61,373 nt of DNA from assembly GCA_030064795.1 (NCBI GenBank), contig JASJEI010000009.1, positions 1 to 61,373 of the forward strand, given 5' to 3'. This document shows, piece by piece, positions 7,647 to 61,373 of the stretch; the first letter of the stretch is position 1, and each line of letters opens with the position of its first letter. Source of the stretch: Pleurocapsa sp. MO_226.B13 (GTDB lineage Bacteria > Cyanobacteriota > Cyanobacteriia > Cyanobacteriales > Xenococcaceae). The position numbers and the translations under genes were made by a program. A model generated the notes under the pieces. It was not told the origin of the DNA, did no database searches, and saw only the letters and a program-made list of their open reading frames with translations.

Positions 7647-7735
7647 TTAAGGAATGAGGAAGGAGGAGCAAGGAGCAGTGATAGCTTAGAGCTTTTTGAT
7701 AAGATAAAACTTATTGCAATAATAATTTTTAAAAT

Positions 7736-8212
7736 ATGAATAATCCCGAAACAGATGTTAAAGACCGTAGCTTTGGGGCTTTGATTTATCTATTTCCCCT
7801 AGTTTATTCCTTACCTTTTGGAATCGCACTTTTAACTCAATTTCCTTGGTTATACCCATTCTTTTCCCCTCTAGTAGCTATCTATGGCATTACCAACAGC
7901 TTGCCTTTTGCCAGTTTGATTATTTTCTTTGGTTTGTGGTTTGCGGTAGTCAGAAATGATAATGTCAGTTATTTTTTACGCTTCAACGCCATGCAAGCTA
8001 TTTTGCTCAATATTATCCAAATCTTGTTTAGCTTAATTATGGGAATTTTTGCCCCTGCCTTTGGCGCGCAAAGCTTAATTACTGAAACTCTAACTAACAC
8101 GATTTTTATGGGTAGCGTGGTGGCTTGTTTCTACTGCATTTTTCGTTCGATTCAAGGACAGTATGCAGAACTTCCCGCTCTTTCTGAAGTTGTATCCTCT
8201 CAAATTCGGTAG
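7736..8212 (+). CDS. Tic20-like integral membrane protein
   Basis: 158 residues with about four hydrophobic segments. The pattern of an initial DRxxGALIYLFPLVYSLPFG, a later hydrophobic helix, then VSYFLRFNAMQAILLNII is characteristic of the cyanobacterial Tic20/Ycf60 family, homologues of the plastid inner-envelope import component. The role in cyanobacteria is not settled. It acts in a membrane, presumably the plasma membrane or thylakoid. It follows mutL by about 90 bases on the same strand. Alternative: a generic DUF4870-type membrane protein, which has a similar YFxxFNAxQA motif. Confidence 0.7.
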   Translation: MNNPETDVKDRSFGALIYLFPLVYSLPFGIALLTQFPWLYPFFSPLVAIYGITNSLPFASLIIFFGLWFAVVRNDNVSYFLRFNAMQAILLNIIQILFSLIMGIFAPAFGAQSLITETLTNTIFMGSVVACFYCIFRSIQGQYAELPALSEVVSSQIR

Positions 8213-8330
8213 GGTAAATTTTTAGACTAGTTGAATTTGGATGACGTTAACTTTGTCTAAGATGAGCAAATCCTAACAAATATCTGAATTTACAATATAT
8301 GGTGTACCGCTCGAACATTAGGGGTTAACT

Positions 8331-8516
8331 ATGAAGGACTTTAATGTAACTGACGAACTATATTGGACACCCCAAGCCCAAGCAAAATTAAAAATGATTC
8401 CTTTCTTTGTTCGTCCTCAAGCACGGCAAAGAATCGAAGCAATGGCTCGCGCTGCCCAATTAGAAGAAGTAACTGCCGAAATAGTTTTACAGGCTAGAGC
8501 AGAATACGGACAATAG
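8331..8516 (+). CDS. Small PCP_red-domain protein
   Basis: A 61-residue protein made of one module: W at residue 12, then AQAKLKMIPFFVRPQARQRIE and a helix ending VTAEIVLQARAEYG. This is the pattern of the PCP_red domain found at the C-terminus of the light-independent protochlorophyllide reductase subunit ChlB and also as stand-alone small proteins in cyanobacteria. No role has been assigned to stand-alone copies that I know of. The likely SD-like GGGG sits 8-11 bases before the ATG. Intact and single-domain. Confidence 0.72.
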   Translation: MKDFNVTDELYWTPQAQAKLKMIPFFVRPQARQRIEAMARAAQLEEVTAEIVLQARAEYGQ

Positions 8517-29090: not shown

Positions 29091-29118
29091 TCCGAACTCC
29101 GAACTCCGAACTCCGAAC
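29091..29118. repeat. Heptanucleotide tandem repeat, TCCGAAC x4
   Basis: Four exact 7-base units lie between copy 2 of the dispersed repeat and the end of the next minus-strand gene. The unit is the complement of the GGAGTTC-type repeat at 51702. Confidence 0.9.
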
Positions 29119-29133
29119 TAACCTAATTTCTTA

Positions 29134-39350: not shown

Positions 39351-39406
39351 CAATTCAAAATCTAAATTTGTTAATTTTTGACTCTCTTACTTTTGACTTC
39401 ACACAT

Positions 39407-40498
39407 ATGACTGGAAAATTTTCTTGGAAAACGATTACCCATTCCGCTTTTTTTGCTGGTGGCGCGCTTCTTACCATTCCTGCAATGCAATTTTTGCCTA
39501 CCAAAGCCCAAATTGAACAACCTATAGCCCAGTTACCACCAGTTTCTTCGGCTCCCACGAGTACTAATTTTATTACTGCTGCCGTAGAACAAGCCAGCCC
39601 CTCCGTTGTCAGAATTACCTCCGAGCGCACTTCTCGGTCTGCTACTTACCGACAGCCAGCTAGGGGACTGGGTTCTGGTTTTATTATTAGCTCCGATGGC
39701 GTGGTACTGACTAATGCTCATGTGGTTCGCGGTGCGCAGCGAGTAACGGTGACTTTAGGTGACGGTCGTAGTTTGATCGGAGAGGTTTTGGGTCAAGACC
39801 CCCTAACGGATGTTGCGGTAGTCAAATTAGCAGCCAATGATTTACCAGCCTTGACTTTAGGAGATTCGGAAATCCTACAACCTGGAGAATGGGCGATCGC
39901 GATCGGCAATCCTTTGGGTCTTAACAATACCATAACGGCAGGTATTATTAGTGGTACGGGTCGCTCTGGAGGAGTAATTGGTTCGCCTAACTCGCGAGTT
40001 AACTTCATTCAAACCGATGCTGCCATCAATCCTGGTAACTCTGGAGGTCCTTTACTCAATCAACAAGGAGAAGTAATTGGCATCAATACGGCAATTATCG
40101 GTCGCGCTAGAGGATTGGGTTTTGCCATCCCCATTAACCAAGCGAGAAATATTGCCGAGCAGCTAATCGCTACGGGAGAAGTGCAACATCCTTATTTGGG
40201 GGTGCAAATGGTAACTCTCGACTCTCTTACCAGAGAACGGTTAAATCGCGATAATCTCAATCTTCAAGCCGATCGAGGGGTAGTTATTGTAGAGGTTGCC
40301 AATGCTTCTCCTGCTGCTAGAGCAGGCTTACAGTCAGGGGATATTATCGAACGGATCGGCGATCGCCAGGTACTTACAGCAGCAGAAGTCCAACAAGCCG
40401 TAGCAGCTAGCTCGATTGGCGAAGATTTAGCGGTGCAGATCGCTCGCAACGGTCGCCGTTTGACAATCGCAGTACAGCCCAGTCAGTTTCCTAGCTAG
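39407..40498 (+). CDS. Deg/Hho-family trypsin-like serine protease with PDZ domain
   Basis: 363 residues from the ATG at 39407; an in-frame TTG at 39368 would precede a poor signal. The N-terminal hydrophobic segment (SAFFAGGALLTIPAMQFLPTKAQ) is a signal peptide or anchor. The catalytic triad is visible: His105 in LTNAHVV, Asp135 in DPLTDVAVVKL and Ser212 in INPGNSGGPLL. A single PDZ domain occupies about 265-360 (HPYLGVQMV, VVIVEVANASPAARAGLQSGDIIERIG). This is the HhoA/HhoB/HtrA group of periplasmic or thylakoid-associated proteases. Which of the three cannot be assigned. Confidence 0.93.
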   Translation: MTGKFSWKTITHSAFFAGGALLTIPAMQFLPTKAQIEQPIAQLPPVSSAPTSTNFITAAVEQASPSVVRITSERTSRSATYRQPARGLGSGFIISSDGVVLTNAHVVRGAQRVTVTLGDGRSLIGEVLGQDPLTDVAVVKLAANDLPALTLGDSEILQPGEWAIAIGNPLGLNNTITAGIISGTGRSGGVIGSPNSRVNFIQTDAAINPGNSGGPLLNQQGEVIGINTAIIGRARGLGFAIPINQARNIAEQLIATGEVQHPYLGVQMVTLDSLTRERLNRDNLNLQADRGVVIVEVANASPAARAGLQSGDIIERIGDRQVLTAAEVQQAVAASSIGEDLAVQIARNGRRLTIAVQPSQFPS

Positions 40499-41067: not shown

Positions 41068-41092
41068 CGACCAATGACTAACAACTCGGAAT

Positions 41093-41120
41093 TCCGAACT
41101 CCGAACTCCGAACTCCTAAC
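41093..41120. repeat. Heptanucleotide tandem repeat, TCCGAAC x4
   Basis: Three exact TCCGAAC units and one TCCTAAC lie between the DUF3445 remnant and the 3' end of mutS2. Same unit as 29091-29118. Confidence 0.9.
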
Positions 41121-41131
41121 TAAGTCTGTTA

Positions 41132-45429: not shown

Positions 45430-45474
45430 GGAATTGAGAAAGAGAAAATTTTAAGTTAATCATCTTTGTCTAAA

Positions 45475-46866
45475 ATGTTTTTTAATCACCAACTTTTAAA
45501 TTCTTATTTAACAACGGCAATTGCCACCACATCTACGATCGCTTTGGTTAGTTTAGCTCCTTCAGTCGCGATCGCCAAAAGTCCTACAGAAATAGCGGCG
45601 ATCGCTAAAAACATGACCGTCAGAATTGATAATAATTTAGGCGCGCCTGGAGGATCGGGAATCATTGTGGCAAAAGAAAACAATACCTACACGGTGCTTA
45701 CTGCCAATCACGTCGTCAAAAATGTCAACGTCGGTTATCTAGTCAAAACTCCCGACCATCAGCAGTACAAAGTAACTAATGTGCGCAACTTAACTAAAGA
45801 GGGACTAGATTTAGCTTATGTCACTTTCAACAGCGGTCGAGAGTATCCAATAGCAACTATTGGTGATTCTCAGTATGCCCTTCCTGGAGCCTCTATTTTT
45901 GTCTCTGGCTACCCTTTGAGCGCGGAAATAAAACAAGAGCGTTATTGGGAGTTCACCACTGGGACAGTTACCAGTATTCGCGATAGTGCTTCGGAAGGCT
46001 ATTCAATGCGCTATCAGGCTTTGACTCGTCGAGGAATGAGTGGTGGTGGGGTATTTGATACCAGCGGACGTTTAGTAGGAATTCATGGTCAGGGTGATGT
46101 AATTGGCAGTGTCAAAAATGAAACTTCTAGCATTCCCGAACCGTTAAAAACAGGTTTTAATGCAGCAATTCCGATCGAAAACTTTATTGAATCTTCCGAA
46201 GCAGCTAAGCTAAATCAAGGGGCTTTAGCGATCGAGCGCGGTAAACCAGATCGGCAAGAAGACGATCTAGATTCAGAAGCAACGGAAAACTATGTCAATG
46301 GACTTGAATTACTGGCTAAGGGGGATATTACCAGAGCCAATCAACATCTGAGCCAAGCAGCAGAAAAAAATCCCGATAACGTCTTGGCAGTATACTATCA
46401 GGGTTTAATTGACTATACCAAGCGAGATCTAACCGCAGCGATCGCCGATTACGACCAAGCGATCGAGAATAACCCTGAATTTTCTTTAGCTTATTTTAGT
46501 CGTGGACTGGCAAAATACCGTCAAGGCAATCGAGAAGGGGCATTAGAAGACTACAATAATGCGATTCGTCTCAATCCTACCGATCCCTGGTCCTATCTCA
46601 ACCGAGGGATTGTCAAAGAAGATTTAGGAGATCCCGACGGAGCTTTAGAAGACTACAATCGTGCGATTCGCATTGCTCCTGACTACGGCAAATCCTATCA
46701 CAATCGCGGGGCAATTCTCTATTATCGTCGGGAATTTGCAGCAGCATCCAGCGACTTTAAAAAAGCCTCAGAAATATTCTTCCGAAATGGCGATACCAAT
46801 AGCTATAATGTGGCGATCGACGGTCTAAATAAAGCCCAAAAAGCCCTCCGCAACTCCCAAAATTAA
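45475..46866 (+). CDS. Exported trypsin-like serine protease with C-terminal TPR array
   Basis: 463 residues from the ATG at 45475; a TTG three codons upstream is in frame. The signal peptide ends near SVAIAKS. The protease domain has His in TANHVV, Asp in GLDLAYVTF and Ser in RRGMSGGGVFD. From about residue 275, four to five TPR units follow (LTAAIADYDQAIENNPEFSL, REGALEDYNNAIRLNPTDPW, PDGALEDYNRAIRIAPDYGK). The protease-TPR fusion suggests substrate docking by the TPR part. Third gene of the COP23 cluster. Confidence 0.9.
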   Translation: MFFNHQLLNSYLTTAIATTSTIALVSLAPSVAIAKSPTEIAAIAKNMTVRIDNNLGAPGGSGIIVAKENNTYTVLTANHVVKNVNVGYLVKTPDHQQYKVTNVRNLTKEGLDLAYVTFNSGREYPIATIGDSQYALPGASIFVSGYPLSAEIKQERYWEFTTGTVTSIRDSASEGYSMRYQALTRRGMSGGGVFDTSGRLVGIHGQGDVIGSVKNETSSIPEPLKTGFNAAIPIENFIESSEAAKLNQGALAIERGKPDRQEDDLDSEATENYVNGLELLAKGDITRANQHLSQAAEKNPDNVLAVYYQGLIDYTKRDLTAAIADYDQAIENNPEFSLAYFSRGLAKYRQGNREGALEDYNNAIRLNPTDPWSYLNRGIVKEDLGDPDGALEDYNRAIRIAPDYGKSYHNRGAILYYRREFAAASSDFKKASEIFFRNGDTNSYNVAIDGLNKAQKALRNSQN

Positions 46867-49512: not shown

Positions 49513-50268
49513 ATGAGCAGTCGCCATAGTCAATCGATCTTGCGTTTGGAAGCAGTTAGTCTTCAGGCTTCTATAGGTTCTGATTTTTTATTACAAGATA
49601 TTTCCTTTAGTGTCGAACCAGGGGCAAAAGTAGGCATTGTCGGTGCATCTGGAGCGGGCAAAACCACTTTACTAAGATTACTCAATCGTTTGGTTTCTCC
49701 TAGCCAGGGAAAAATTTATCTTCAAAACCAAGGACATCTACTTGCAGCCAACCAATTGCGTCGCCTGATCGTTCTAGCTCCCCAAGAGCCTAAGTTATTA
49801 GGAATGAATGTGCGCGATGCCTTGAGCTATCCCCTGCGGTTACAACAGCTACCAGAATCAGAAATTAAATCGAGGATTGATACCTGGACGGATCTATTGT
49901 CTATCCCCTCAGAATGGTTCGATAAGACCGAATTACAATTATCTCTAGGGCAAAGACAGCTTGTGGCGATCGCACGTTCTTTAATTATGCAACCCCAGAT
50001 ATTACTTTTAGATGAGCCTACTTCCGCACTAGATTTGGGTACTGCTACCAATTTATTAAAGGTACTCGAACAGCTAAACCAGAGTCAAAACCTGACGATC
50101 CTCATGGTCAATCATCAATTGGAATTAATCAAAGATTTTTGCGATCGCTTTTTATTTTTAAATGCAGGAAAACTAGAAGAGGAGATTTGCGCCACCGAAA
50201 CCAATTGGCAAAGACTACAGCAAAAACTGTTGCGATCGCAGGTACAGCAAGAGCAAGAATGGGATTGA
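49513..50268 (+). CDS. ABC transporter ATP-binding protein (FetA/YbbL-like)
   Basis: 251 residues from the ATG at 49513, with AAGGAG at 49494-49499. Walker A GASGAGKTT, Q-loop LAPQEPKLLG, signature LSLGQRQLVAIAR, Walker B ILLLDEPTSALDLGT and H-loop MVNHQLELIKD. The short single-domain architecture resembles FetA/YbbL-type ATPases, usually paired with an FetB permease; none follows here, because the next gene is on the other strand. Substrate unknown. Confidence 0.9.
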   Translation: MSSRHSQSILRLEAVSLQASIGSDFLLQDISFSVEPGAKVGIVGASGAGKTTLLRLLNRLVSPSQGKIYLQNQGHLLAANQLRRLIVLAPQEPKLLGMNVRDALSYPLRLQQLPESEIKSRIDTWTDLLSIPSEWFDKTELQLSLGQRQLVAIARSLIMQPQILLLDEPTSALDLGTATNLLKVLEQLNQSQNLTILMVNHQLELIKDFCDRFLFLNAGKLEEEICATETNWQRLQQKLLRSQVQQEQEWD

Positions 50269-50301
50269 GCCAGAGTCGTTAGTCAGGCAAAGTAGCTTTT
50301 T

Positions 50302-51069
50302 TTAAACACTACGAGAAAGACGACTTATTTGGCTCGAACCAGCCACCGAAAGTTCTTTTTCAGCATATTCTTCGTTGTTTTCAATTAATGCAGGATTGAA
50401 ACGATAGCCCACATTACGCACCGTTTGAATTATATTTGGTTGTCGTGGATTCATTTCAATTTTCTTCCGCAAAGAAAGTACGTGAGTGTCTACAGTACGG
50501 GGGTTATCAATGGCATCGGGCCAAGCACGTTGCAACAATTCAGAACGACTTAAAGGGTTTCCTTCGGCTTGAGCCAAGACATAAAGTAGACTAAACTCCT
50601 GTGGAGTCAGTTCGATATAATTTCCCTTGAGCAGCACCCTTCGTTGTGCCAGATCGATTTTCAGATCTTTGCACTCTAGAGATAAAGGAACGGAGTTGTT
50701 GACTCGCATTCTTCTGATCAATGCTTCCACTCTTGCCAAAAACTCTTGCATTCCAAAAGGCTTGGTCAGATAATCATCAGCACCAGTTTTTAATCCTCTT
50801 ACAATATCTTGTTCGCTACCACGGGCGGATAACAATAGAATTAGAGACTTTTGTTGTTCGTATAGCCAGTGAGATAATTCTAATCCATCTCCATCGGGTA
50901 AATCGGAGTCAACAATTACTAACGTTGGCTGATGTCTATAAAAAGCATCTCTAGCTTGTTGCAGACTAGCAGATTGGCTGATAACATAACCTGATTGTTG
51001 TAAATGCCAACCCAGTAGCGAACGCAAGTGAGGATTACTTTCAACTATTGATATATGTGCTGAAATCAC
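50302..51069 (-). CDS. OmpR/PhoB-family response regulator with atypical acidic pocket
   Basis: 255 residues. The receiver domain (1-120) has the phosphoacceptor Asp54 in IVDSDLPDGDG and Lys in LTKPFG, but the acidic pair that is usually Asp-Asp is Glu10-Ser11, so Mg binding may be weak. A winged-helix DNA-binding domain (about 130-230) follows: ELTPQEFSLLYVLAQAEGNPLSRSELLQRAWPDAIDNPRTVDTHVLSLRKKIE, TVRNVGYRFN. No histidine kinase is adjacent. It is possibly a partly phosphorylation-independent regulator, as proposed for NblR-type proteins; identity with NblR is not claimed. Confidence 0.92.
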   Translation of the reverse strand: MISAHISIVESNPHLRSLLGWHLQQSGYVISQSASLQQARDAFYRHQPTLVIVDSDLPDGDGLELSHWLYEQQKSLILLLSARGSEQDIVRGLKTGADDYLTKPFGMQEFLARVEALIRRMRVNNSVPLSLECKDLKIDLAQRRVLLKGNYIELTPQEFSLLYVLAQAEGNPLSRSELLQRAWPDAIDNPRTVDTHVLSLRKKIEMNPRQPNIIQTVRNVGYRFNPALIENNEEYAEKELSVAGSSQISRLSRSV

Positions 51070-51400
51070 TTTTGCCTCATTAAATTTAGGGAAATTCTTG
51101 TAAGAATAAGGCTAACACCCGTATGATGAACATTTTGTAGCGATGGTTACGTCCAATCAGTACAGATAACCTGACAAAAAAAATAGGATTGTCAATAGCT
51201 AAGGCAGTAAAATAATAAAAAGCCAGAAAACTTAATAACAGTTCAATAATTAGCAGGCAGCTATTTTCTTAAAGATATCTCCGTTAGGAATATTTGCAAG
51301 CCGTTAGCTTTTAGTTAACTACTTGCCTAGCTAAACAATAGTACAGAACAAAAAAACCAAAATCAACCGCCGTCTAGAGCAATATTATTAAGCCAGAGTC
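51070..51400. other. Intergenic region with no recognised element
   Basis: 331 AT-rich bases between the divergent response-regulator gene and the small conserved gene. It probably contains both promoters. No RNA gene, hairpin or repeat stands out. Confidence 0.5.
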
Positions 51401-51664
51401 ATGATTCTTCAACATCCTCAAACAATTCGTCACTATCAAAAAATTACGGATGGAATGGTCGATCTATACCGTAGACGCTATAGCTTTGAAGAAATCAGAT
51501 TATACATGGAAGGATACATTGCTTGCTTGCGTAACAGTGACTTTATCGAACAGTATCATATTCATCGTCTAGAAGAACAAGCATTACGCTTTTTAAGAGA
51601 TCCCTCCAATTTTGAGTTGTCTTTCCCTCAAACCCAGACAGAGAAAGAGACAGACTTTTGGTAA
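51401..51664 (+). CDS. Small conserved cyanobacterial protein (DUF6761-like)
   Basis: 87 residues, all-helical and charged: PQTIRHYQKITDGMVDLYRRRYSFEEIRLYMEGYIACLRNSDFIEQYHIHRLEEQALRFLRDPSNFELSFP. This matches a small family restricted to cyanobacteria that I recall as DUF6761; the number is from memory. No catalytic motif. The array of heptamers starts 37 bases after the stop. Confidence 0.78.
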   Translation: MILQHPQTIRHYQKITDGMVDLYRRRYSFEEIRLYMEGYIACLRNSDFIEQYHIHRLEEQALRFLRDPSNFELSFPQTQTEKETDFW

Positions 51665-51701
51665 TTCAAAGTTATTCAGGCTGGGGAGTAGAAAAGCGAT
51701 C

Positions 51702-51785
51702 GGAGTTCGGAGTTCGGAGTTTGGAGTTCGGAGTTCGGAGTTCGGAGTTCGGAGTTCGGAGTTCGGAGTTCGGAGTTCGGAGTTG
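51702..51785. repeat. Heptanucleotide tandem repeat, GGAGTTC x12
   Basis: Twelve consecutive 7-base units (GGAGTTC with a T in unit 3 and a G in the last). It is the longest of the heptamer arrays in the window. Because 7 is not a multiple of 3 it reads as a seven-residue repeating peptide in all three frames, but these frames have no start signal or family and are not genes. Confidence 0.95.
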
Positions 51786-51939
51786 TCTTCCCCTACTTCC
51801 CCATCTCCCCTATCTTCCCCAAGTACCCATCTCCCTATGCTACCTCATAGCTATCCGTAGCCAGCTTGAGCTTATTTAAATTAATTTGAAAGTGCTGTAG
51901 GATAAATAATTTAAGCACTGATAATCAACTAAATTTACC

Positions 51940-52230
51940 ATGCCTGATTTACGCGAAAGATTGAGCAGAGACATTGCAGATATTTCCTGGATAGATTTAA
52001 TGCCTCATGCCAAAAGAGATGCAGTGATTGTCATTAAATCAGAATTAGATCTATCTGAAGTGGCAGCAGCGATCGCTCTAGATGATACTAACTCAGTTCA
52101 AGCATGGATCTCAGAGCAATCAATTGCTAAGCCTACTGCTAACCAATTGAGTCAGTGGAATGACAACCCCCAAAAGCAATTTACAGCCTTAATTGTGCAG
52201 CCATTTGTGGTAGTTCAGGAAGTAATCTAA
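51940..52230 (+). CDS. DUF2288 protein
   Basis: 96 residues: LRERLSRDIADISWIDLMPHAKRDAVIVIKSELDLSEVAAAIALDDTNSVQAWISEQSIAKPTANQLSQWNDNPQKQFTALIVQPFVVVQEV. This is the DUF2288 family, found in cyanobacteria and gammaproteobacteria, with the conserved PHAxRDAVIV and FxALIVQPFVLVQE. Function unknown. Soluble, monocistronic. Confidence 0.9.
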   Translation: MPDLRERLSRDIADISWIDLMPHAKRDAVIVIKSELDLSEVAAAIALDDTNSVQAWISEQSIAKPTANQLSQWNDNPQKQFTALIVQPFVVVQEVI

Positions 52231-52253
52231 AAATTAATGCTATATGGTTGTTA

Positions 52254-52274
52254 GTTCGGAGTTCGGAGTTCGTG
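52254..52274. repeat. Heptanucleotide tandem repeat, GTTCGGA x3
   Basis: Two exact GTTCGGA units and one degenerate unit lie just after the DUF2288 gene. Same unit family as 51702-51785. Confidence 0.8.
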
Positions 52275-52352
52275 GTTGTACTTTCTCATTCCTTGCTCCT
52301 CATTCCTCGTTCCTTTTCCTTCTCCATCTCCTCTATCTCCCTCCGCTCCTTT

Positions 52353-52772
52353 TTAGTCAGGTTTTAGAGCCGTGGTTAACTGTGAAATCCAGCCTACTGG
52401 TTGAGTCTTAATTTCGACAAAACCCGCAGCTTCGAGCCAACAATCTACATTTCCTGCTGCATAGACTTGGGAATAAGGTTCGCGAAATAATTTAATCAGC
52501 CAGTCAGTACGACGCAGACGCAGTTGATTACCATCAAGAATAATAATTTGTCCTCCAGGTTTGAGTAACCGCTGACATTCTTGTAAAATTGCCTGGGAAA
52601 TTTCTACGGGGGTTTCGTGGAACAAAAAAGCAACCGAGATTAAGTCGAAGGTTCGATCGCCAAAATTAGTAGCTTCGGCTAAACCCTGTAGCCAATTAAC
52701 GGCTAAATTAGCTTTCTTGCCCTTGTCTTCGGCAATTAACAACATATACGGCGAAATATCTAGTCCAGTCAC
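52353..52772 (-). pseudogene. Class I SAM-dependent methyltransferase, 5'-truncated
   Basis: 139 residues from a GTG at 52772. The sequence begins inside a methyltransferase fold: TGLDISPYMLLIAEDKG is motif I's second half, NWLQGLAEATNFGDRTFDLISVAFLFHET is motif II/III, then LLKPGGQIIILDG. The glycine-rich first SAM-binding loop (usually ..D.GCG.G..) and everything before it is missing, and the frame stops immediately upstream. It therefore probably no longer encodes a functional enzyme. A full-length homologue would be about 210-240 residues. Confidence 0.68.
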
Positions 52773-52824
52773 CTAACTTTTCACGGGATCTTGGGAAGAG
52801 AAATAAATTAGGGAATAATGTTCG

Positions 52825-53085
52825 CTAACCTTTGTTCAATCTGAATGATTCCTCAACCAAATCTGACAACCCCATTGAAAGTGTACTCATCGCTCGCTCC
52901 AAAGCTTCGATTCGACCACGACGAGATAGAGCTTCAACCGCCTTCAAATAGGCTTCACTTCCAGCTTTGCCCAAATATCGATCGCAAGAGGGATTACCAT
53001 TTTTGGTGACAAAGATCGGCTCATGGGACATCCATTTGTAATACCAATAACGACCACCCTTTTTTCCTTTGGCTTGGTAGCTCAC
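52825..53085 (-). CDS. Hypothetical protein, possibly 5'-truncated
   Basis: 86 residues from a GTG at 53085, unrecognised. The sequence SYQAKGKKGGRYWYYKWMSHEPIFVTKNGNPSCDRYLGKAGSEAYLKAVEALSRRGRIEALERAMSTL looks like a small nucleic-acid- or DNA-element-associated protein with a basic, aromatic-rich front half. The frame continues about 20 codons further upstream without an ATG and reads sensibly (KYIRDEGEIAPSGCWIV), which suggests that the real N-terminus is longer or lost. It sits just upstream of the truncated methyltransferase. Confidence 0.5.
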   Translation of the reverse strand: MSYQAKGKKGGRYWYYKWMSHEPIFVTKNGNPSCDRYLGKAGSEAYLKAVEALSRRGRIEALERAMSTLSMGLSDLVEESFRLNKG

Positions 53086-53225
53086 AATCCAACAACCAGA
53101 CGGAGCAATTTCACCTTCGTCCCTTATGTATTTAGTCGCTTTTGACTAAAATTGTTGAACATGAGCCAAAAGGCGAGGGTTATACCCAATTCTATTCATG
53201 TTCGACTTTGGGAGTACCAGTGGCA

Positions 53226-55544
53226 TTAAGCAATCTTTCTTAGTAGTGAAGTTAGTACGATGGCAATTATCCCTGGAATCCAAGCTAGCCATCCGCCTTG
53301 GGTTAAAACCAACCAACAGACACCAGATAAAACAATTACACAACCGGTAATTGCCCAACTTCGAGCTAGATAATTCTTTCCCAGACTAGTAATAAATCCA
53401 CTACCAAAAGACCAAAATCCGATCCACAGCCAATCTCCCCAAAAGGGTAGCCACCAAATTAGCGGACGATTATCTTCCACCGCACTGACAAGCTGACTAA
53501 CAACATGAGCGTGAAGATGTAAACCTCTAATTTCTCCCATTGGCGTATCGTGAACATCAGGTACAGATTTGGCGGTCACACCAATTAAAACGATCCGGTC
53601 TTTAATCCAGCTAGGATCGAAGGTTTCCCGTTCTTCCAATACATCTCTAATAGTTACTTGTTGAGCCAATTGGGGAGTACGACGATAGGAAATAAGTAAC
53701 TGATTACCGCGATCGTCAAATTTTTGATATCCAGCACTACCATTGACTAATCTGGTAATAATCTGAGAACCAAATTGCCAATTGTTTTCTACGGTAGTAA
53801 CGGAAATATCGCGACTTTGAAAATAACGACCAATTAACTGCAAGGCAAAGGAATAGTTAGTTCTGCAATAAGAAGTTTTAGCCAGAGGATTATCGCTACG
53901 CGAGAGGAGATATCGACGAACGCGATCGTCTCCACCATTGGTTACTTGCAAGTCATCATAAAAGTTACTAAAACCAACTTGTTCGAGGGGGCTTTGTGTT
54001 GGTGGAGCAACGCTATTTTCAAGATTATCTCCCAAACAAATACTAACTACATTGGGTTGTTGCCAATTTTTTGCCAACTCCGAACGATTATCGGCTCGAT
54101 CGTCGGCATTACTAGCTGGAATTGGATAGTCGCGAAATATATCAATACCAATAACTGCTGGTTGATGTTGTTGTAGTTTATCAATCAACTCTGCCAGAAC
54201 GCGATCGGGAAGAGGATATTTGTATTTGCTACTGCTAATATCTCGTTCGTCAGCACCAATAATTAGTATCCGTCGATCGCCTGATTCTGAGGGGAGTTTT
54301 TGACTGAGATAGTCAAAGGCCCTCAGTTCCCAACCCTGGAGCATTCCCAGGGTTCTCAAGCCAATTACTGCCACAGTAGCGATCGCACTTCTAGCTAGTA
54401 CTCTGGTGATTTTTGCTTGTCGAGTTGAAATATTTTTAACAACAGACTCTTTTTTTTGCTGATATAGCTGATGCCATGCTGGAGGTATCTCCGCAGGATT
54501 TTGGACAATTATTGGTAGCCAAGTAGCACAGGGATAGAGATCTTCTAATCCTTGTAATTTAGCTCTAGCTTCTCTTACTGCTAAATAAAAACTTTCTCCC
54601 CTGGCGTAAGCAGTCAAAAAATATTTCAAAAATTCTTGAGCGACTAGATCTGGAACTGGTTCTCGCATCACCACGATCTGGGGAATCTTTAAATCTGCTA
54701 GTTCGCGAGCTAATCCCAAACCATCACAGGAATTGAAAATCGCGATTTTTAAGCCTTTGGCCACCGCTTTGCTCAAAGCATATTTTAATTCTTTAGTAGT
54801 TAAACTGTCTTGTTGGTTGATTTGAATACAGCCTGTTTGTTTATGGCGATCGCTATTACCATGTCCGGCAAAAAAAAGAATATCCCATCCTCGATCGTCC
54901 CATAGCTGTTCGGTAATTTCTTTTCTGTTGGTTTTGGTTAATAAGGTGACGGAACTATTAGGTAACTGTTCTAAAATCTGGCGATCGCGACTGGTATTTA
55001 TCCCCTGACTATTACCAATAATCGCTAAAATTCTAACTTGAGGTTTTAAATTAATTACGCACTGCTTTTCCTTTTCATAATAAGGTTTACTAAGAGCTAT
55101 TTCTGCCTTGGTATAAGACTCGAAGCAGTTGACTAAATGCCAAGGCAAACATTGAAGCTGGATATTTTCTGTCTGAATTAGAATTCTAATTTCATCAACA
55201 GGATTTAATTTCGATAAAAATCTTTCTTTGAGGTGACGAAAAGAAGCTGCATCGAGCCAATTATTGAAGCTGGTTAATAGTTTGCTGGCAGCAAGATTGC
55301 AGTCTTCACAACGAGAATAATTAGAAATAAATGCCTTATTAGATTCGAGTCGAGCTGATAAACCTAAGCCCAAATAAGCTTTTTGCCATAAGTGATATTG
55401 TTCGAGAATGTGGGGTGCTGCTGGTAGTTGAGAACTAATTTCTAATTCAGTAGACAAACCTTCTTTGCTGATTTGCATGATAACTGAAAACCCTGTGGCA
55501 AAATTACCCTCTGTGATTTTCAAAGAAACTATATATACAGACAT
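53226..55544 (-). CDS. CHAT-CHASE2 transmembrane protein (caspase-like peptidase plus periplasmic sensor)
   Basis: 772 residues. The CHAT domain occupies about 165-350, with His228 in FFAGHGNS and Cys273 in FNSCDGLGLARELADL, the peptidase dyad. A hydrophobic segment at about 385-402 is the first membrane helix. A CHASE2 domain fills about 405-690 (LRAFDYLSQKLPSESGDRRILIIGADERDI, YPLPDRVLAELIDKLQQHQPAVIGIDIFRD, PSWIKDRIVLIGVTAKSVPDVHDTPMGEIRGLHLHAHVVSQL). Three C-terminal helices follow (from about 695). CHAT should be cytosolic and CHASE2 periplasmic. Last gene of an operon with DUF1822 and a sigma-like protein. Confidence 0.92.
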   Translation of the reverse strand: MSVYIVSLKITEGNFATGFSVIMQISKEGLSTELEISSQLPAAPHILEQYHLWQKAYLGLGLSARLESNKAFISNYSRCEDCNLAASKLLTSFNNWLDAASFRHLKERFLSKLNPVDEIRILIQTENIQLQCLPWHLVNCFESYTKAEIALSKPYYEKEKQCVINLKPQVRILAIIGNSQGINTSRDRQILEQLPNSSVTLLTKTNRKEITEQLWDDRGWDILFFAGHGNSDRHKQTGCIQINQQDSLTTKELKYALSKAVAKGLKIAIFNSCDGLGLARELADLKIPQIVVMREPVPDLVAQEFLKYFLTAYARGESFYLAVREARAKLQGLEDLYPCATWLPIIVQNPAEIPPAWHQLYQQKKESVVKNISTRQAKITRVLARSAIATVAVIGLRTLGMLQGWELRAFDYLSQKLPSESGDRRILIIGADERDISSSKYKYPLPDRVLAELIDKLQQHQPAVIGIDIFRDYPIPASNADDRADNRSELAKNWQQPNVVSICLGDNLENSVAPPTQSPLEQVGFSNFYDDLQVTNGGDDRVRRYLLSRSDNPLAKTSYCRTNYSFALQLIGRYFQSRDISVTTVENNWQFGSQIITRLVNGSAGYQKFDDRGNQLLISYRRTPQLAQQVTIRDVLEERETFDPSWIKDRIVLIGVTAKSVPDVHDTPMGEIRGLHLHAHVVSQLVSAVEDNRPLIWWLPFWGDWLWIGFWSFGSGFITSLGKNYLARSWAITGCVIVLSGVCWLVLTQGGWLAWIPGIIAIVLTSLLRKIA

Positions 55545-55610
55545 AAGCTGTTAATCATCGAACATTGAACGAGGTAATTTAATTAAGGCAAACGAGGGAT
55601 AATTAATATT

Positions 55611-56588
55611 CTAAAGCAGAAATTGTTCTGTAAGTTCGGCATCATTTAAAATTAATTGAACCGTAAAAAGTTCTTTTGGTTGCCCACTAAATAGAAGTTG
55701 AATAAAGTTATCTTGGCTTCTAGCTTGAGCTTGCATAAAAACTTCTCCTGATGATTCGATGACCTTTAATTTGAGTGTTTCTGGTAAGTAAATGTTGTCG
55801 GGACTAGGATGTACCTGCAAGGTAACGTCGATACTACCACTGGATTCAGGGGTAATTTCAACTAACAATACTACTGGGCAATCTCCTAATTGAATTCCTA
55901 AGTCAACTAATTTCGCTCTTTGGATACGATTTCTTGTTTCCTTAGTTATTGAGAGTCTCTCTGGGGACAATTCAGCATTTCTAAATTCCCAGGCTGGAGT
56001 TAATTGACCTGGATTTAAAAGACTTTCTACTGCTAACCAACTAGGAGTAAAAATATTATTTAACCATTGCTCTAGATTGACTACAGAAGAATTAGCAGTT
56101 GAAGCTCTAAGATCGTGAAGGCGATCGATTAATGCCTCTATTGGTTTTAGATCGCTAATAGCTAACTCTTCAGTCGCTACTTGTGGCGTAAATCCTAAGA
56201 TTGCAGCTTTTTCAAAAGAGTCATCAATTTTGACCGCCACATAACCAAGACGTAGATCCCAAACCTCCATCGGAATATGACAGCTAGTATCCCAACTTTT
56301 TATAGGACGACATTCTAATTTACCTAAATTAGCAATATTGAGATCTGCCACATCATCACAGGTTCGCATCAGGGGATTCCAACTATCACTCTTGACTAAA
56401 TCTGTAGCGATCCCCAACATTTCTAAATAGTTGTTTACTACTAATACTGCCAAGGTATTATAGAAGACTCGTGCTGCTTTATTTGTAGTAGTTTGTTGTG
56501 CTGCAAAATCATGGGCTATTTCTCTAGTTTCTGAAGTAATCGGCAAGGGAATAGCAATATGTTCTATGTTTGGAAAATTGGCAACCAT
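55611..56588 (-). CDS. DUF1822 protein
   Basis: 325 residues. The family pattern is an N-terminal IAIPLPITSETREIAHDFAAQQTTTNKAARVFYNTLAVLVVNNYLEMLGIATDL, then AADWNPLMR-like WNPLMRTCDDVADLNIANLGKLECRPI, and a beta-rich second half. This is DUF1822, which I know from cyanobacteria next to CHASE2/CHAT and sigma genes. No catalytic motif is visible. It lies 20 bases after the sigma-like gene and 66 bases before the CHAT-CHASE2 gene. The function is unknown; its position makes it a candidate substrate or regulator. Confidence 0.87.
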   Translation of the reverse strand: MVANFPNIEHIAIPLPITSETREIAHDFAAQQTTTNKAARVFYNTLAVLVVNNYLEMLGIATDLVKSDSWNPLMRTCDDVADLNIANLGKLECRPIKSWDTSCHIPMEVWDLRLGYVAVKIDDSFEKAAILGFTPQVATEELAISDLKPIEALIDRLHDLRASTANSSVVNLEQWLNNIFTPSWLAVESLLNPGQLTPAWEFRNAELSPERLSITKETRNRIQRAKLVDLGIQLGDCPVVLLVEITPESSGSIDVTLQVHPSPDNIYLPETLKLKVIESSGEVFMQAQARSQDNFIQLLFSGQPKELFTVQLILNDAELTEQFLL

Positions 56589-56608
56589 AATATATCTGAC
56601 TTGATTAT

Positions 56609-57244
56609 TTATATATACCCTTGAAATTTACTAAATTCTCGCAGTAGTGGCTTACATTTGCGCTGATAAAAGCTACTCAATGTTCCTGCTGAGACTTGAT
56701 ATTCTTCCGCCAAAGTTTTCCATGGTGTTTCTGGTGGTAATCTTCTTAAAATTAAAACTTGACAAGTAATTTGTGGATGATTATCTAAATGAGTTTGTCG
56801 TAATTTGTATTCAGGATCTTCTAACACCCACTTTTCAATCTCTTCTAATATTGGAGGAACATCTATCTTGGCAGGTAAATTCTCTACTGGATCGATTATT
56901 TTGTTACTTTTATCGACTCGCACTGGTGTAGTTTGTTTTCTTTGCTTTTCTGTTTTGATGTAGCCATCTTTTAATCTCCATTTTAGGTAATTGTTTAACC
57001 AAGTTACGACGCTAGCCTGACTGGGATCGTAAGCTTTAGCAGTTTTCCCTTCACAGATGTTTTGGCAAAAATAAATCCAAGTATCTTGCAACGCATCTTC
57101 ATAATAGGGAGTATCTTCATTCCACAATTTATTGCTAACCAATCTAATAATCTGTGTTAGTTTTTTCTGGCGTTGTTTACTTCCATGAGGATATTCACAG
57201 GCTTCTTGAACAAGCTGAACTAAGATGTTAGCGATTTTTTCCAT
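56609..57244 (-). CDS. Sigma-70-family-like transcription factor
   Basis: 211 residues. The region-2-like part is YYEDALQDTWIYFCQNICEGKTAKAYDPSQASVVTWLNNYLKWRLKDGY, where DALQDTW corresponds to DLxQExF and YDPSQASVVTWL to the FDPERGSFxxWL of ECF sigmas. A helix-turn-helix at the C-terminus (ETPWKTLAEEYQVSAGTLSSFYQRKCKPLL) is region-4-like. It is larger and more divergent than classical ECF sigmas. First gene of the operon; a gene-poor region with a palindrome lies upstream. Confidence 0.82.
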   Translation of the reverse strand: MEKIANILVQLVQEACEYPHGSKQRQKKLTQIIRLVSNKLWNEDTPYYEDALQDTWIYFCQNICEGKTAKAYDPSQASVVTWLNNYLKWRLKDGYIKTEKQRKQTTPVRVDKSNKIIDPVENLPAKIDVPPILEEIEKWVLEDPEYKLRQTHLDNHPQITCQVLILRRLPPETPWKTLAEEYQVSAGTLSSFYQRKCKPLLREFSKFQGYI

Positions 57245-57478
57245 ATACTCTGGAGTTCGACTTCAAGACGTATAAGTTTTAAATTGTTATTGCTTATACT
57301 TTTTCACTAGATTTCGATAATTACCTTTCTCTTTAAACAATAAATATTCTGCAATTTTTTTACAAAAATTAAGATTTTTTTTGTAGCTCGCAAGAATTCA
57401 ATTAGTATGATGCAATCGCTCGCCTATCGCAAAATCGCAGTAGGTCTTTTGGTTAGGACAGAAAAATTAATTGCTCGT

Positions 57479-57506
57479 GAGTAATGAGTAATGAGTAATG
57501 AGTAAT
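57479..57506. repeat. Heptanucleotide tandem repeat, GAGTAAT x4
   Basis: Four exact GAGTAAT units followed by a partial one. Same period as the other arrays, with a unit related to that at 17118. Confidence 0.9.
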
Positions 57507-57528
57507 GAGTGTCCCGATCTAAGTTCGT

Positions 57529-57544
57529 ATTCCTATATAGGAAT
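57529..57544. promoter_or_regulatory. 16-bp perfect palindrome, possible operator
   Basis: ATTCCTATATAGGAAT is its own reverse complement. It lies between the sigma-DUF1822-CHAT operon and the DUF928 gene. A dimeric regulator could bind it; nothing in the sequence identifies which. Confidence 0.3.
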
Positions 57545-58061
57545 CCTATTTCAGATGAGAGATTATATTTTGGGCAAAGGGAATAGGGAATAGGCAACAG
57601 GGAATAGAAATTTTCTTAGATCATTTAGAATTGCTAATAAAAATTAAACCCTGGAAAAAAACACCTGAATTTTTCCTATTTTGCTTATCCAAATTTAACT
57701 ACAAAATAACAACAAATATAATTTAGATAATCATAAAAAAATATTATGTATAACAGCAAGAACGAGGTAGTATTATTTTGATAGTTCCATTTAATACTAA
57801 ATCTATCGCGAGTACTAATAACTCCTAATTCACGTTGCTCAGGTCAGATAAATTTAGCTCTCGATCCAACACAGGTTAAAAAGTTTTGCTTCCATTAAAA
57901 ATACGGCTTGACGCAAATTCTACCTAATTTTCTCGGAAGCTGTTACCACTAAACCTGAACTTTTCCGATCGCTTTCCTGAATAAAACGGGATTTTTTCTG
58001 CTAAAGATTTGGGCGATAGCAATAAACGTTTGAAATAAGTATATCGATAAACAACGACAGT

Positions 58062-58163
58062 ATGAGTGATTATGGTCTGGTTATAGAGAACCAAATCTAC
58101 AACAGTGAAGAGGCTGCTCGAGCTGTTGCTGCTTTGCTAGCTCCAAGATCTAGATTTTCTTGA
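58062..58163 (+). CDS. Candidate 33-residue small protein upstream of DUF928
   Basis: ATG at 58062 to TGA at 58161-58163. The peptide begins MSDYGLVIENQIYN, then SEEAARAVAALLAP and a basic end. Its composition looks coding (acidic front, alanine-rich helix), but there is no clear Shine-Dalgarno sequence and no family that I recognise. It could be a small regulator, a leader, a remnant or chance. Confidence 0.3.
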   Translation: MSDYGLVIENQIYNSEEAARAVAALLAPRSRFS

Positions 58164-58193
58164 AAATTAGCATTTAAGCTTGAGTTATCACCA

Positions 58194-59048
58194 ATGATTT
58201 CCACTAAATATTTTTTGGGCAGAAGTATCAAAATGTTTTTAAAAATAGCTTTCTCTGGGGATCGATGGTCAAACAATCGATGGGCAATCTTAGCTGTTGC
58301 ATTATCAATAGCTTTGCTCTTAATTCCCCAACCTGGAAACACCAAAGAAAAGACGAGTAATAATAACAGACTACCAGCAGCACCAGATACAGGTTCGCCT
58401 GAAGGAGATTTTTCTGCTGGAGGAACTAGGGACAATCGGATCGGGAATAGTATGTGTGGTGTTGGCAACCAACGGATTGTCTACTTATTGGGTAATAGAA
58501 ATCGAGAGTTTACCTCATCTGCCTATCCTACGTTCTGGTTTTATCTTCCTAAAACTAGGAATAAAATATCCCAAATGAATTTCGTACTGACAGAATTAGA
58601 AACAGGCAAGAGGATATATGAGCGGGTAATTAAGAAAACTACAAGCTCGGGAATAATGGGGATCGACTTACCCAAAGCAAAACAATATGCCCTATCTCCA
58701 AAAGTAAACTATGCTTGGAGTCTTCAAGTTAATTGCGCCGAAACCGAGTCAGAATCGGAAATGGCTCTGGAAGGATGGATAACACGATTACCATCAAAAT
58801 CCAATTTACAAGCTCAGCTAGCTGCTACCTCTGAAGCAGAAAAACACAGAGTTTATCTAAGACATAATCTTTTGTACGATGCCCTAACTCAACTGGCGAA
58901 ATACCACATAGCTAAACCAAATAATATCGAGATCGAAACAGCATGGAATCAGTTACTAGTAACATTGGGATGGCAAGATTTAGTCAGGCAGAACTCAGTA
59001 ATTCGTCCATCTTTGAGCAAGATTTGCATATCTAGTAAGAGAAAATAA
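58194..59048 (+). CDS. DUF928 exported protein
   Basis: 284 residues from the ATG at 58194, or 271 from the ATG at 58233, which gives a more usual signal peptide n-region. The signal or anchor core is WAILAVALSIALLLIPQPG. The mature part is the DUF928 pattern: RLPAAPDTGSPEGDFSAGGTRD, TFWFYLPKT, FVLTELETGKRIYERVI, GIMGIDLP, LSPKVNYAWSLQVNCA, then EGWITRL and a helical tail (HNLLYDALTQLAKYH). DUF928 proteins are found with CHAT and haemagglutinin genes in cyanobacteria. It is presumably periplasmic; function unknown. Its stop lies 11 bases from the stop of the convergent CHAT-TPR gene. Confidence 0.88.
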   Translation: MISTKYFLGRSIKMFLKIAFSGDRWSNNRWAILAVALSIALLLIPQPGNTKEKTSNNNRLPAAPDTGSPEGDFSAGGTRDNRIGNSMCGVGNQRIVYLLGNRNREFTSSAYPTFWFYLPKTRNKISQMNFVLTELETGKRIYERVIKKTTSSGIMGIDLPKAKQYALSPKVNYAWSLQVNCAETESESEMALEGWITRLPSKSNLQAQLAATSEAEKHRVYLRHNLLYDALTQLAKYHIAKPNNIEIETAWNQLLVTLGWQDLVRQNSVIRPSLSKICISSKRK

Positions 59049-59059
59049 TTATCAATCGT

Positions 59060-61373
59060 TTACCGCCAATTGCCTACTAAAATAAAAGCCGACCAGAAAA
59101 AAGGATGAGAAAAAGCACGATCTTGGAGAGTCGATATTTGAGCTTGACGTAGAGCTTCAGCTTTAGTAAGATTTCCTCGCGCTAATTCTTGGTAAAAACG
59201 AGTCATGAGGGTAACGGTAGCTAAATCGTTAACCGACCATAAAGAGGCTACTGTACTACGCGCTCCCGCACGAACGGCAATTCCTGCCAATCCTAAAGTC
59301 GCTAAGCGATCGCCCGAAGCTGTTTGGCAAGCACTTAGCACCAATAGTTCGATCGGACGGATCTGCTTACTATCTCCCCGTAACAAGCGACTCAACTCGT
59401 CAATGTTAATCCGATTATCCCAAGTCAAGATAAAGGTATCTTCAGCTTGAGAGCTAAATTGACCGTGAGTGGCCAGGTGAACTATTTCAAAAGGAGTTCG
59501 ATTGGTAGAGCGATTAAAGTTTTGTTCGGTAAAATTATTATTTAGTAAGATATTTGAGGCAAATAGAGATTGGATCTGTTCGATTTCTTGTTTGACTCCA
59601 GGCAGACTAGAAAAACCTTGTCGAGGTTCTGAAAGTCCTGCTAGTAGTGCCTTTTGCTCTTCTCTATCTGGAGTTTGTAACTGAGTAAGTTGTAAACCAG
59701 GAGCGATCGCGACGTTATATTTTTCAATCAGGTATTGTTGACCATCGTGTAGGGTAGCTGGTGGTAGATTACGCAATATACCGTCGGGAACAAAAACTAA
59801 GGTTTCGATCTGGTTAGCCTGCAATTCTGCTTCTAGGGGGCGAATCAGCCAGTCATAAATTTGTTGAAACAGATTTATATTCAGACGACGAGGCGAACTT
59901 AACTGACTGTTAGCGGAGATAACAATCAACTCGATTTCTGATGGTGGTAACTCTTTAAAATAGTGGCGTAAAGGTTGACTGGGCACAGCAGCGATAACTT
60001 CCAGGCGATCGCCCAAAACGATCGTGTAGATAATTGCTGCGGTGGGATCTAGTTGCTCGATTTGTTTGGGTTGGGCATCTAAACAAGCATCGTGAAAGAA
60101 ATTATCTAACTGAGCTAATTGTAATGATTCGATTGTCTGTCTGGCTTGGTTTAAATTAGCTTGGCTAGGCTCCGATCGTAATAATAGTGCTGCTAGCTCT
60201 CGATAAACTGGCTCAATTTTTTCGCGAAAAGAATATTGTATGTCTGAGCTTATCGCTACCAGATCGCTTCTAAGAGATTGGAGATTTTCGATGGCTTGGG
60301 TGTAAGATGCGATCGCTCTTTCTCGATTACCCTGAGCCTTGAGTATTCTTCCTAATTGCCATTGCCATTGATAGCTTAATTCTTTGGCATCTAGGCTTTG
60401 AGCTTTAACTAAAGCCAGTTCGGTTATTTGTGCTGCTGACTGCCATTGTTGGTGGCGTTCGTAGAGATTGCCCAAAACTCCCAAAGCATCGGCTTCAGTT
60501 CTGGGAATATTTAGGGATTTAGATTGCTCGATCGCATCGGCTAATAAGTTTGCTACTTTTCTTGGTTGGATATCTAATTCAATCAGTTGACGCGCCAAAC
60601 TAATTCTTGCCTGGATAGTAGTTTGTCGGGGGGGAAGTTGAGTGATTAACCGTTCGATTTCTATTGCTAAGTCAGAAGCCACTTTCTGGTTTCCCAAGCC
60701 AACTAAAACCCCCAATTCATCCAGTTTTCCTCGTAATTGAATATATGGATGAGGTGCGATCGCGATCGCCTGTTGATAAAAGTTGATTGCTACCTCTGGT
60801 TGCTCTTGAAATCTGGCGTTATTCCCTAAACTAAGTAAAATATCAGCCATAGTTGGCTTATCTTCTAATTTTTTGGCAGTAGCTAAAGCCGATTTTAAGT
60901 TATCGTTTGCAGCTTGATATTTACCGACTCGATTCAAAACATTGCCCAGATTGAGTAAAGCCTGAGCTTTAATTAAACTATCTGGTTGATTTTCAAGTTG
61001 CTGGTTAGTTGCAGTCAGAGTTTTAAGACTTTGAGAATATAAACCCAATGCCTGTAAAGCATTGGCTTGATAAATTTTTCCCTGAGTTAAGCCTGTAATA
61101 TTTCCTTGTTTTTCGTAAACAGAAGTAGCCCTTCGCCAAGTTGCCAAAGCATTTCGCGCTTGTCCTAAAGACAATTCTAGTTGTCCTTTAACTTCTAAAA
61201 TTTGAGCTAACAACTGACTCTTTTCCGATTCGCCATCGATAGAGTCAATAATCTTTGACCCTTGAGTGAGGGTGATTTCTGCTTGCTCCCATGCTCCCAA
61301 CTTTTGATAAATTAAAGCTAAATTGCGAGTAGCGATCGCCATACCAACCCGATCGTCCTGTTTCTGATACTGT
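59060..61373 (-). CDS. TPR-CHAT protein (5' end beyond window)
   Basis: The frame runs to the window edge without a start, continuing upstream of the first Met at 61342 with YQKQDDRVGMAIATRNLALIYQKLG, so the N-terminus is outside. TPR units fill most of the visible N-terminal half (AEITLTQGSKII, AINFYQQAIAIAPHP, AIASYTQAIENL). The C-terminal CHAT domain keeps His in VHLATHGQFSS and Cys in LSACQTASGDR. The C-terminal 350 residues are closely similar to the TPR-CHAT protein at 1081-3705. The gene is convergent with DUF928. Confidence 0.92.
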   Translation of the reverse strand, partial: QYQKQDDRVGMAIATRNLALIYQKLGAWEQAEITLTQGSKIIDSIDGESEKSQLLAQILEVKGQLELSLGQARNALATWRRATSVYEKQGNITGLTQGKIYQANALQALGLYSQSLKTLTATNQQLENQPDSLIKAQALLNLGNVLNRVGKYQAANDNLKSALATAKKLEDKPTMADILLSLGNNARFQEQPEVAINFYQQAIAIAPHPYIQLRGKLDELGVLVGLGNQKVASDLAIEIERLITQLPPRQTTIQARISLARQLIELDIQPRKVANLLADAIEQSKSLNIPRTEADALGVLGNLYERHQQWQSAAQITELALVKAQSLDAKELSYQWQWQLGRILKAQGNRERAIASYTQAIENLQSLRSDLVAISSDIQYSFREKIEPVYRELAALLLRSEPSQANLNQARQTIESLQLAQLDNFFHDACLDAQPKQIEQLDPTAAIIYTIVLGDRLEVIAAVPSQPLRHYFKELPPSEIELIVISANSQLSSPRRLNINLFQQIYDWLIRPLEAELQANQIETLVFVPDGILRNLPPATLHDGQQYLIEKYNVAIAPGLQLTQLQTPDREEQKALLAGLSEPRQGFSSLPGVKQEIEQIQSLFASNILLNNNFTEQNFNRSTNRTPFEIVHLATHGQFSSQAEDTFILTWDNRINIDELSRLLRGDSKQIRPIELLVLSACQTASGDRLATLGLAGIAVRAGARSTVASLWSVNDLATVTLMTRFYQELARGNLTKAEALRQAQISTLQDRAFSHPFFWSAFILVGNWR

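Follow-up and report, generated by a model that had tools for sequence, protein, structure and literature searches.

What could a sigma factor-like gene, a DUF1822 gene, and a gene for a CHAT peptidase joined to a CHASE2 membrane sensor do together? This question is raised by a three-gene operon of the cyanobacterium Pleurocapsa sp. MO_226.B13, found in a stretch of 61,373 nucleotides (contig JASJEI010000009.1, positions 1 to 61,373; hereafter, the window). Release of a sigma factor by proteolysis is familiar from envelope stress and, lately, also from clustered regularly interspaced short palindromic repeats (CRISPR) loci with CHAT proteases. We tentatively propose, as possible rather than probable, that the membrane CHAT protease relieves the inhibition of the sigma factor by DUF1822, and that the output is a surface secretion system.

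The three genes

The genes lie on the minus strand in the order sigma-like, DUF1822, and CHAT-CHASE2, with intergenic gaps of 20 and 66 bases; an earlier note made from the sequence had described this arrangement, and its coordinates all hold. The first gene (56609-57244, minus strand) encodes a sigma-70/extracytoplasmic function (ECF)-like protein of 211 amino acids (aa), with a region 2-like and a region 4-like half and a loop between them. The second (55611-56588, minus strand) encodes the 325-aa DUF1822 protein (PF08852, 264.8 bits in Pfam), the proposed anti-sigma factor. The third (53226-55544, minus strand) encodes a 772-aa protein made of an EACC2-like part, a CHAT peptidase, and a CHASE2 membrane sensor. 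The nearest relatives are mostly from Pleurocapsales and cyanobacteria.

Linkage of the sigma-like, DUF1822, and CHAT genes

In a census, we searched six genomes for DUF1822, blind to CHAT and sigma genes; this gave 65 matches, and 60 stretches were fetched. A sigma-like gene was directly upstream of 39 of the 59 DUF1822 genes whose upstream neighbor was in view (median gap of 21 bases) versus 0 of 458 other genes, and an EACC2-type CHAT gene was directly downstream of 31 of 60 DUF1822 genes versus 5 of 459 other genes. The 39 sigma-DUF1822 pairs comprised 24 with a sigma-like protein of the small class, which is that of the window and whose profile was seeded by sequence search, and 15 with one of a larger class, a count that leans on its seeds because these adjoin DUF1822 at other loci, some in the same genomes. 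Including a third class of upstream proteins and the one at locus L120, the upstream count was 49/60. In a phylum-wide draw of 30 DUF1822 genes, which shared two places with the census, a sigma-like gene was found upstream in 23, or in 25 when the remoter class was included.

Starting from the other end, we found that 118 of 291 genomes of the order contain a match to the window sigma-like protein at E ≤ 1e-25, as do 21 of 117 genomes of the phylum at E ≤ 1e-15. Among the 40 sigma-orthologue loci fetched, 27 have DUF1822 immediately after the sigma gene, and 22 have DUF1822 followed by CHAT. Furthermore, DUF1822 matched on 26 plasmid records, seven of them typed as conjugative. Four of the 26 were opened, and each of them has, ahead of DUF1822, a gene matching the sigma profile; two of these genes carry a sigma-70 family annotation and the other two are called hypothetical. 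The length of DUF1822 also tracks the sigma class, with 379-479 aa in 26/26 genes beside the larger class and 304-352 aa in 29/36 beside the small class.

The linkage of the genes is real. The sigma-DUF1822 pair forms the core, whether CHAT is next to it or not; in our view, DUF1822 is the constant partner of the sigma, and CHAT feeds in as an extra input. The loci were collected without regard to CRISPR, and the linkage holds at them.

Anatomy of DUF1822 and joined models

According to the models, DUF1822 has two domains around a disordered linker: an N-terminal alpha/beta domain, proposed to be the sigma-binding part (residues 12-155; 56124-56555, minus strand); a variable linker, the candidate cleavage region (residues 204-221; 55926-55979, minus strand); and a C-terminal immunoglobulin (Ig)-like beta-sandwich domain (residues 222-325; 55614-55925, minus strand). 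Within the window DUF1822 family (14 sequences), conservation was 0.74 over residues 12-155 and 0.73 over residues 222-325, and it was lowest, 0.42, in the linker. Two AlphaFold models of homologues displayed a helix-strand N-terminal part and a C-terminal beta-sandwich, with a predicted local distance difference test (pLDDT) below 50 at roughly the linker position in both. The fold matches of the Ig-like sandwich were unremarkable.

When the sigma and DUF1822 of a homologue were joined in one chain, AlphaFold gave a predicted template modeling (pTM) score of 0.74, with pLDDT of at least 90 for 389 of 592 residues, versus a pTM of 0.57 for DUF1822 and CHAT joined likewise; pTM by itself is an indirect measure, and the two models are of different organisms and sizes, with unequal numbers of domains and different alignments. 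A contact between sigma and DUF1822 is thus predicted. The structure modeling suggested in the earlier note for both complexes placed the sigma against DUF1822 and left DUF1822-CHAT without a confident placement.

We also searched the six census genomes with the DUF1822 C-terminal domain, obtaining 45 matches. A single one fell outside DUF1822 genes, in a 1048-aa protein (L118:5534-8680, minus strand) that carries EACC2-CHAT, nSTAND1, HEAT, and the DUF1822 C-terminal part in one chain. Such fusions often mean that the parts work together, this being a single case. DUF1822 reaches up to 22 matches per genome. At another locus (L109, about 5336-8344), a 1002-aa open reading frame (ORF) is flanked by pieces of DUF1822 on both sides; it resembles a Tn3-type transposase.

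The CHAT-CHASE2 protein

The CHAT domain (residues 189-335; 54540-54980, minus strand; 52.3 bits in Pfam) has the His/Cys dyad at H228 (codon 54861-54863, minus strand) and C273 (codon 54726-54728, minus strand), the positions at which it had first been read. Both residues were kept in 15/15 aligned relatives and in 253/256 rows of a larger set, in which the remaining three were fragments not reaching the sites, some rows were one gene fetched twice, and the loci L001-L080 had been chosen by a pattern containing the Cys. In a homologue model, the N-terminal region begins with an alpha/beta part, which is followed by a caspase-type fold; the latter, that of the CHAT part, matched separase, Csx29, and SAVED-CHAT. 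The label "EACC2-like" for the first part is a tentative one, from model and architecture. No TPR family matched the protein at E ≤ 1 in Pfam, and the NCBIfam HetF model gave a weak match (15.3 bits, E = 0.0045). The CHASE2 sensor domain (residues 389-714; 53403-54380, minus strand; 209.9 bits in Pfam) is flanked by hydropathy peaks at residues 382-400, 730-748, and 750-768; its placement, described from the sequence at the outset, is supported as one between hydrophobic segments.

Identity of the sigma-like protein

The sigma label is the weakest point of the operon description. No Pfam sigma family matched the window protein, and its match to TIGR02937 (the NCBIfam sigma-70/ECF superfamily), at 22.7 bits (E = 6.2e-5), fell short of the cut-off of that model, 42.9. 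The same model was matched at E ≤ 0.001 by 7 of 15 relatives, some of which are annotated in their source as sigma-70 family. Given the linkage counts, the sigma-like identity is more than chance; the label that the earlier note had given thus keeps a sub-threshold match and that of the relatives, but lacks a Pfam family and the TIGR02937 cut-off.

In the larger class, two of the three proteins scanned scored 90.6 and 91.5 bits with TIGR02937, and Pfam sigma region 4 was over the cut-off in three of four (L006, L048, and L058); L003 had no TIGR02937 match and no Pfam family. The third upstream class (11 proteins) was related to the larger class by profile comparison (probability 98.5), with no sigma Pfam match among the members scanned. 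The upstream protein at L120 matched Pfam sigma region 2.

Exchange of sensors and association with DUF928 and secretion genes

The CHAT proteins adjacent to DUF1822 carry different C-terminal parts: CHASE2, nSTAND1 with or without WD40, WD40 alone, protein kinase, Peripla_BP_6, and pentapeptide repeats. On a Planktothrix plasmid, in a sigma-DUF1822-CHAT set (L244:3268-7549, plus strand), Peripla_BP_6 replaces CHASE2, and the protein with this domain bears the annotation of an ABC transporter binding protein. At L113:6489-9056 (plus strand), the DUF1822-adjacent EACC2-type CHAT protein has a protein kinase domain in its C-terminal half.

Past the sigma gene of the window, there is a DUF928 gene on the strand opposite the trio (58194-59048, plus strand; PF06051, 144.9 bits), and then a TPR-CHAT gene that runs into the window end and is cut by it (59060-61372, minus strand; CHAT, 231.7 bits; H626/C672 in the 760-aa ORF 59060-61342). 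The DUF928 protein has a hydrophobic N-terminal segment at residues 30-48 by hydropathy and is probably exported. Relatives of the window TPR-CHAT protein have hydrophobic N-termini and, read by eye, look exported.

In the census, DUF928 was within the fetched stretch at 14 of 18 loci with a window-like CHASE2 protein versus 4 of 42 others (0/3 with a divergent CHASE2, 1/10 whose CHAT protein was of another kind or broken, and 3/29 without such a CHAT next). With all CHASE2 proteins pooled, the counts were 14/21 versus 4/39 (Fisher's test, 1.1e-5, kinship ignored). The 22 contiguous sigma-orthologue loci, which vary in length and some of which are cut, included DUF928 in 14, ShlB in 7, TPR-CHAT in 6, an exoprotein of two-partner secretion (TPS) in 3, and none of these in 6. 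Across the 40 orthologue loci, a TPR-CHAT gene was present in 11.

A conjugative Nostoc plasmid has eight co-directional genes for sigma-like, DUF1822, CHAT-CHASE2, DUF928, TPS exoprotein, ShlB/FhaC, CHAT, and FHA proteins. The window has the same members except for the secretion genes, which would fall past the window end if present. Because of these neighboring DUF928 and secretion genes, surface secretion is proposed as the output; this is a guess from gene neighborhood. At another locus, the gene beside a sigma-DUF1822-CHAT cluster (L222:3097-8103, minus strand) encodes 1668 aa that include an eCIS core domain.

Proposed mechanism and alternatives

In the mechanism that we infer for inhibition, cleavage, signal, and output, DUF1822 would hold the sigma inactive through its N-terminal domain; the pairing itself comes from the linkage and the predicted contact. 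The EACC2-CHAT-CHASE2 protein would be anchored in the inner membrane, its CHAT peptidase facing the cytosol and its CHASE2 domain lying on the outer side. The peptidase would be activated when CHASE2 receives a signal, perhaps one that DUF928, a probably exported protein, presents to it, and would then cut DUF1822, most likely in the disordered linker. The sigma would be freed, possibly after further breakdown of the DUF1822 N-terminal fragment, and its most likely output, judging from the neighborhood, would be an envelope set made of DUF928, TPR-CHAT, a ShlB/FhaC-type transporter, and a TPS exoprotein. At other loci, the core would be retained and the sensor exchanged.

Several observations weigh against this proposal. 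The enrichment tests and P-values ignore the kinship of the genomes. DUF1822 was not the next gene at 13 of the 40 sigma-orthologue loci, one of which is cut at a contig end; at three of the 13 (L223, L228, and L229), sigma and DUF1822 are separated by a TPR-CHAT gene. An EACC2-type CHAT gene did not directly follow on the same strand in 21 of the 39 census pairs (12/24 in the small class and 9/15 in the larger one); one of these has such a CHAT gene on the opposite strand, and at least at L123 a TPR-CHAT gene follows instead. Pairs without CHAT therefore need another release route, and the three-gene linkage that the earlier note proposed to count stands in the counts of 39/59, 31/60, and 22/40, but not as an obligate trio. 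Profile comparison gave no match between the small and larger sigma classes (probability 3.5), and inspection by eye of the regions ahead of 48 sigma genes, a number of which share a genome, revealed no common promoter motif. DUF928 was at none of the three divergent CHASE2 loci (L097, L106, and L134). As for the models, the indirectness of the pTM comparison counts here too; the DUF1822-CHAT placement, not confident at 0.57, fits a passing substrate and gives no support. Finally, the DUF1822 linker is variable, and a conserved cut motif was not found.

A broader version of the proposal describes a widespread cyanobacterial signaling family with a constant pair of sigma and DUF1822 anti-sigma factor, fed by exchangeable sensors through a shared CHAT protease. 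In its window-like CHASE2 branch, the exported DUF928 would be the outside partner of the sensor, a TPS surface system and the exported TPR-CHAT protein would be switched on, and the state of secretion or of the surface would be fed back by proteolysis. We consider it somewhat unlikely that this version holds as a whole.

Among the alternatives, the one that survives best is the published view of EACC2 proteins, in which the EACC2-caspase protein belongs to a conflict or cell-fate system and cleaves itself upon a stimulus, the sigma gives the transcriptional response, and DUF1822 is a scaffold. The autopeptidase activation coupled to an ECF sigma factor is proposed in PMC8195603, and coherent with it are the STAND, WD40, and kinase architectures adjoining DUF1822 and its presence on the 26 plasmid records, with the seven conjugative ones. 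On the other hand, the three proteins of the trio had no match to PADLOC defense profiles at E ≤ 0.1, and the window-like CHASE2 versions accompany DUF928 and, at some loci, secretion genes. Moreover, DUF1822 is called a TPR protein in that paper, yet no TPR family matched the window DUF1822 at E ≤ 1 in Pfam, and the models display a helix-strand domain and a beta-sandwich. We hold this view to be unlikely; given the absence of DUF928 at L085, L104, and L112, which are census loci of the STAND type, both uses may coexist in the family.

We find it quite unlikely that the CHAT-CHASE2 protein cuts nothing and tethers the sigma-DUF1822 complex to the membrane until a CHASE2 signal lets the complex go: the dyad, dispensable for a simple tether, was kept in 253/253 rows covering it, and a tether is not favored by the unconfident placement of DUF1822 with CHAT either. 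More doubtful still is that CHAT cuts the sigma in the loop between its halves, activating or destroying it, after delivery by DUF1822, since, although this loop is poorly ordered in a homologue model (block means of 80, 60, 56, and 82 over residues 111-150) and the DUF1822 C-terminal domain can be fused to CHAT (L118), as expected of a recruiter, the 21/39 pairs without EACC2-type CHAT next imply that such processing cannot be the basic role, and in Craspase solely Csx30 of the Csx30-RpoE complex is cut (PMC9729208).

If release of the sigma from DUF1822 by the CHAT protease is true, CHAT-controlled sigma release would be an ordinary, CRISPR-free form of cyanobacterial signaling with modular input, and DUF1822, which Pfam names as a domain without known function, would be a sigma inhibitor. 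A proven role for DUF1822 would give meaning to many unannotated operons.

Other features of the window

The longest ORF of the window encodes 1064 aa of a GH38 mannosidase. A second TPR-CHAT protein (1057-3705, plus strand; 882 aa; CHAT, 213.9 bits) is encoded far from the trio. Arrays of 7-base units were found at 51700-51784 (12 copies of TCGGAGT), 29091-29119, 41083-41121, and 57478-57510, with TGAGTAA copies between the sigma gene and DUF928. Other genes encode a trypsin-PDZ protein (39368-40498, plus strand) and a trypsin-TPR protein (45466-46866, plus strand).

Comparison with known systems

An envelope-sensor-controlled sigma that drives TPS is found in Pseudomonas, where VreI works with PdtA/PdtB; sensor, anti-sigma factor, and proteases differ from those of the window system. 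In Anabaena, HetF can cut PatU3, which limits HetZ (PMC12288457), and so shares with the window system a cyanobacterial CHAT-type protease able to cut the inhibitor of a regulator; it differs in having no sigma factor, in its neighborhood, and in its tie to cell division and heterocysts (PMC12288457). In Myxococcus DdvA-DdvS, a membrane protein of caspase-like fold (8rot by title, a fold match of the CHAT part) controls an ECF sigma, but the membrane protein itself is the anti-sigma factor (PMC4374960). The CalpL-CalpT-CalpS system also has a protease that cuts an anti-sigma factor holding an ECF sigma; this is a Lon-type protease with SAVED, triggered by cyclic tetra-adenylate (cA4) (PMC11417357), whereas the families found in the membrane protein of the trio are CHAT and CHASE2.

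The closest analogy drawn in the earlier note was with Csx29-Csx30-RpoE of type III-E CRISPR systems, in which Csx30, an inhibitor of the sigma, is cut by the CHAT protease Csx29 (PMC10028731). The likeness comprises a CHAT domain with a His/Cys dyad, a two-domain inhibitor (a proposed one in the case of DUF1822) with a flexible linker, and an ECF-like sigma that the N-terminal part of the inhibitor binds in Craspase and would bind in the window system, all from one locus (PMC10028731, PMC9729208). Csx30 is cut in a loop of its C-terminal domain, not in the linker (PMC10028731), so the cut site is not readable from disorder alone; by the title of PMC11106740, Craspase orthologues cut a nonconserved site, so the variable DUF1822 linker is no objection. 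The differences are that Craspase is triggered by target RNA through Cas7-11 and the window system would be triggered by a membrane sensor, that Csx29 has TPR repeats before CHAT where the window protein has an EACC2-like part, and that the Craspase output includes, as one possibility, spacer acquisition. No sequence match linked DUF1822 to Csx30, the folds of their N-terminal domains not being compared: the DUF1822 profile matched no chain among the PDB sequences at E ≤ 5, where 8eey holds Csx30 by title and the inclusion of its chain was unchecked. Among the 16 ORF products of the window scanned with Pfam, a part of all its ORFs, no Cas family was found, the longest ORF being the GH38 mannosidase of 1064 aa, and Rfam gave no match over 50000-61373; within the window, neither a Cas7-11/gRAMP effector nor a CRISPR array was seen. 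The window system would work like Csx29-Csx30-sigma but is no member of it; the analogy keeps the two domains, the flexible linker, and the sigma partner, and loses a match of the DUF1822 profile to any PDB chain.

The gene neighborhood and the sensor-caspase-sigma reading are already in print: PMC8195603 (eLife 2021) describes EACC2-caspase proteins, with C-termini including CHASE2, beside ECF sigma and DUF1822 genes. The window protein resembles them in its constant N-terminal module and caspase-type domain followed by a changing C-terminus, CHASE2 with membrane helices included, and in its neighbors; by neighborhood and architecture it would fit their TRADD-N-free branch, with a sigma that is sub-threshold by profile. 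The accessible text of that paper speaks of autoproteolysis and of DUF1822 as TPR and names no DUF928 or secretion partner, whereas here DUF1822 is proposed as a two-domain inhibitor and substrate. In the literature searched, DUF1822 came up in two papers and DUF928 in one, no paper mentioned CHASE2 together with the CHAT domain, and we found no statement of DUF1822 as an anti-sigma factor or of the link with DUF928 and secretion. What is added here is the core pair, the anatomy of DUF1822, the joined models, the sensor swapping, and the association with DUF928 and secretion genes.

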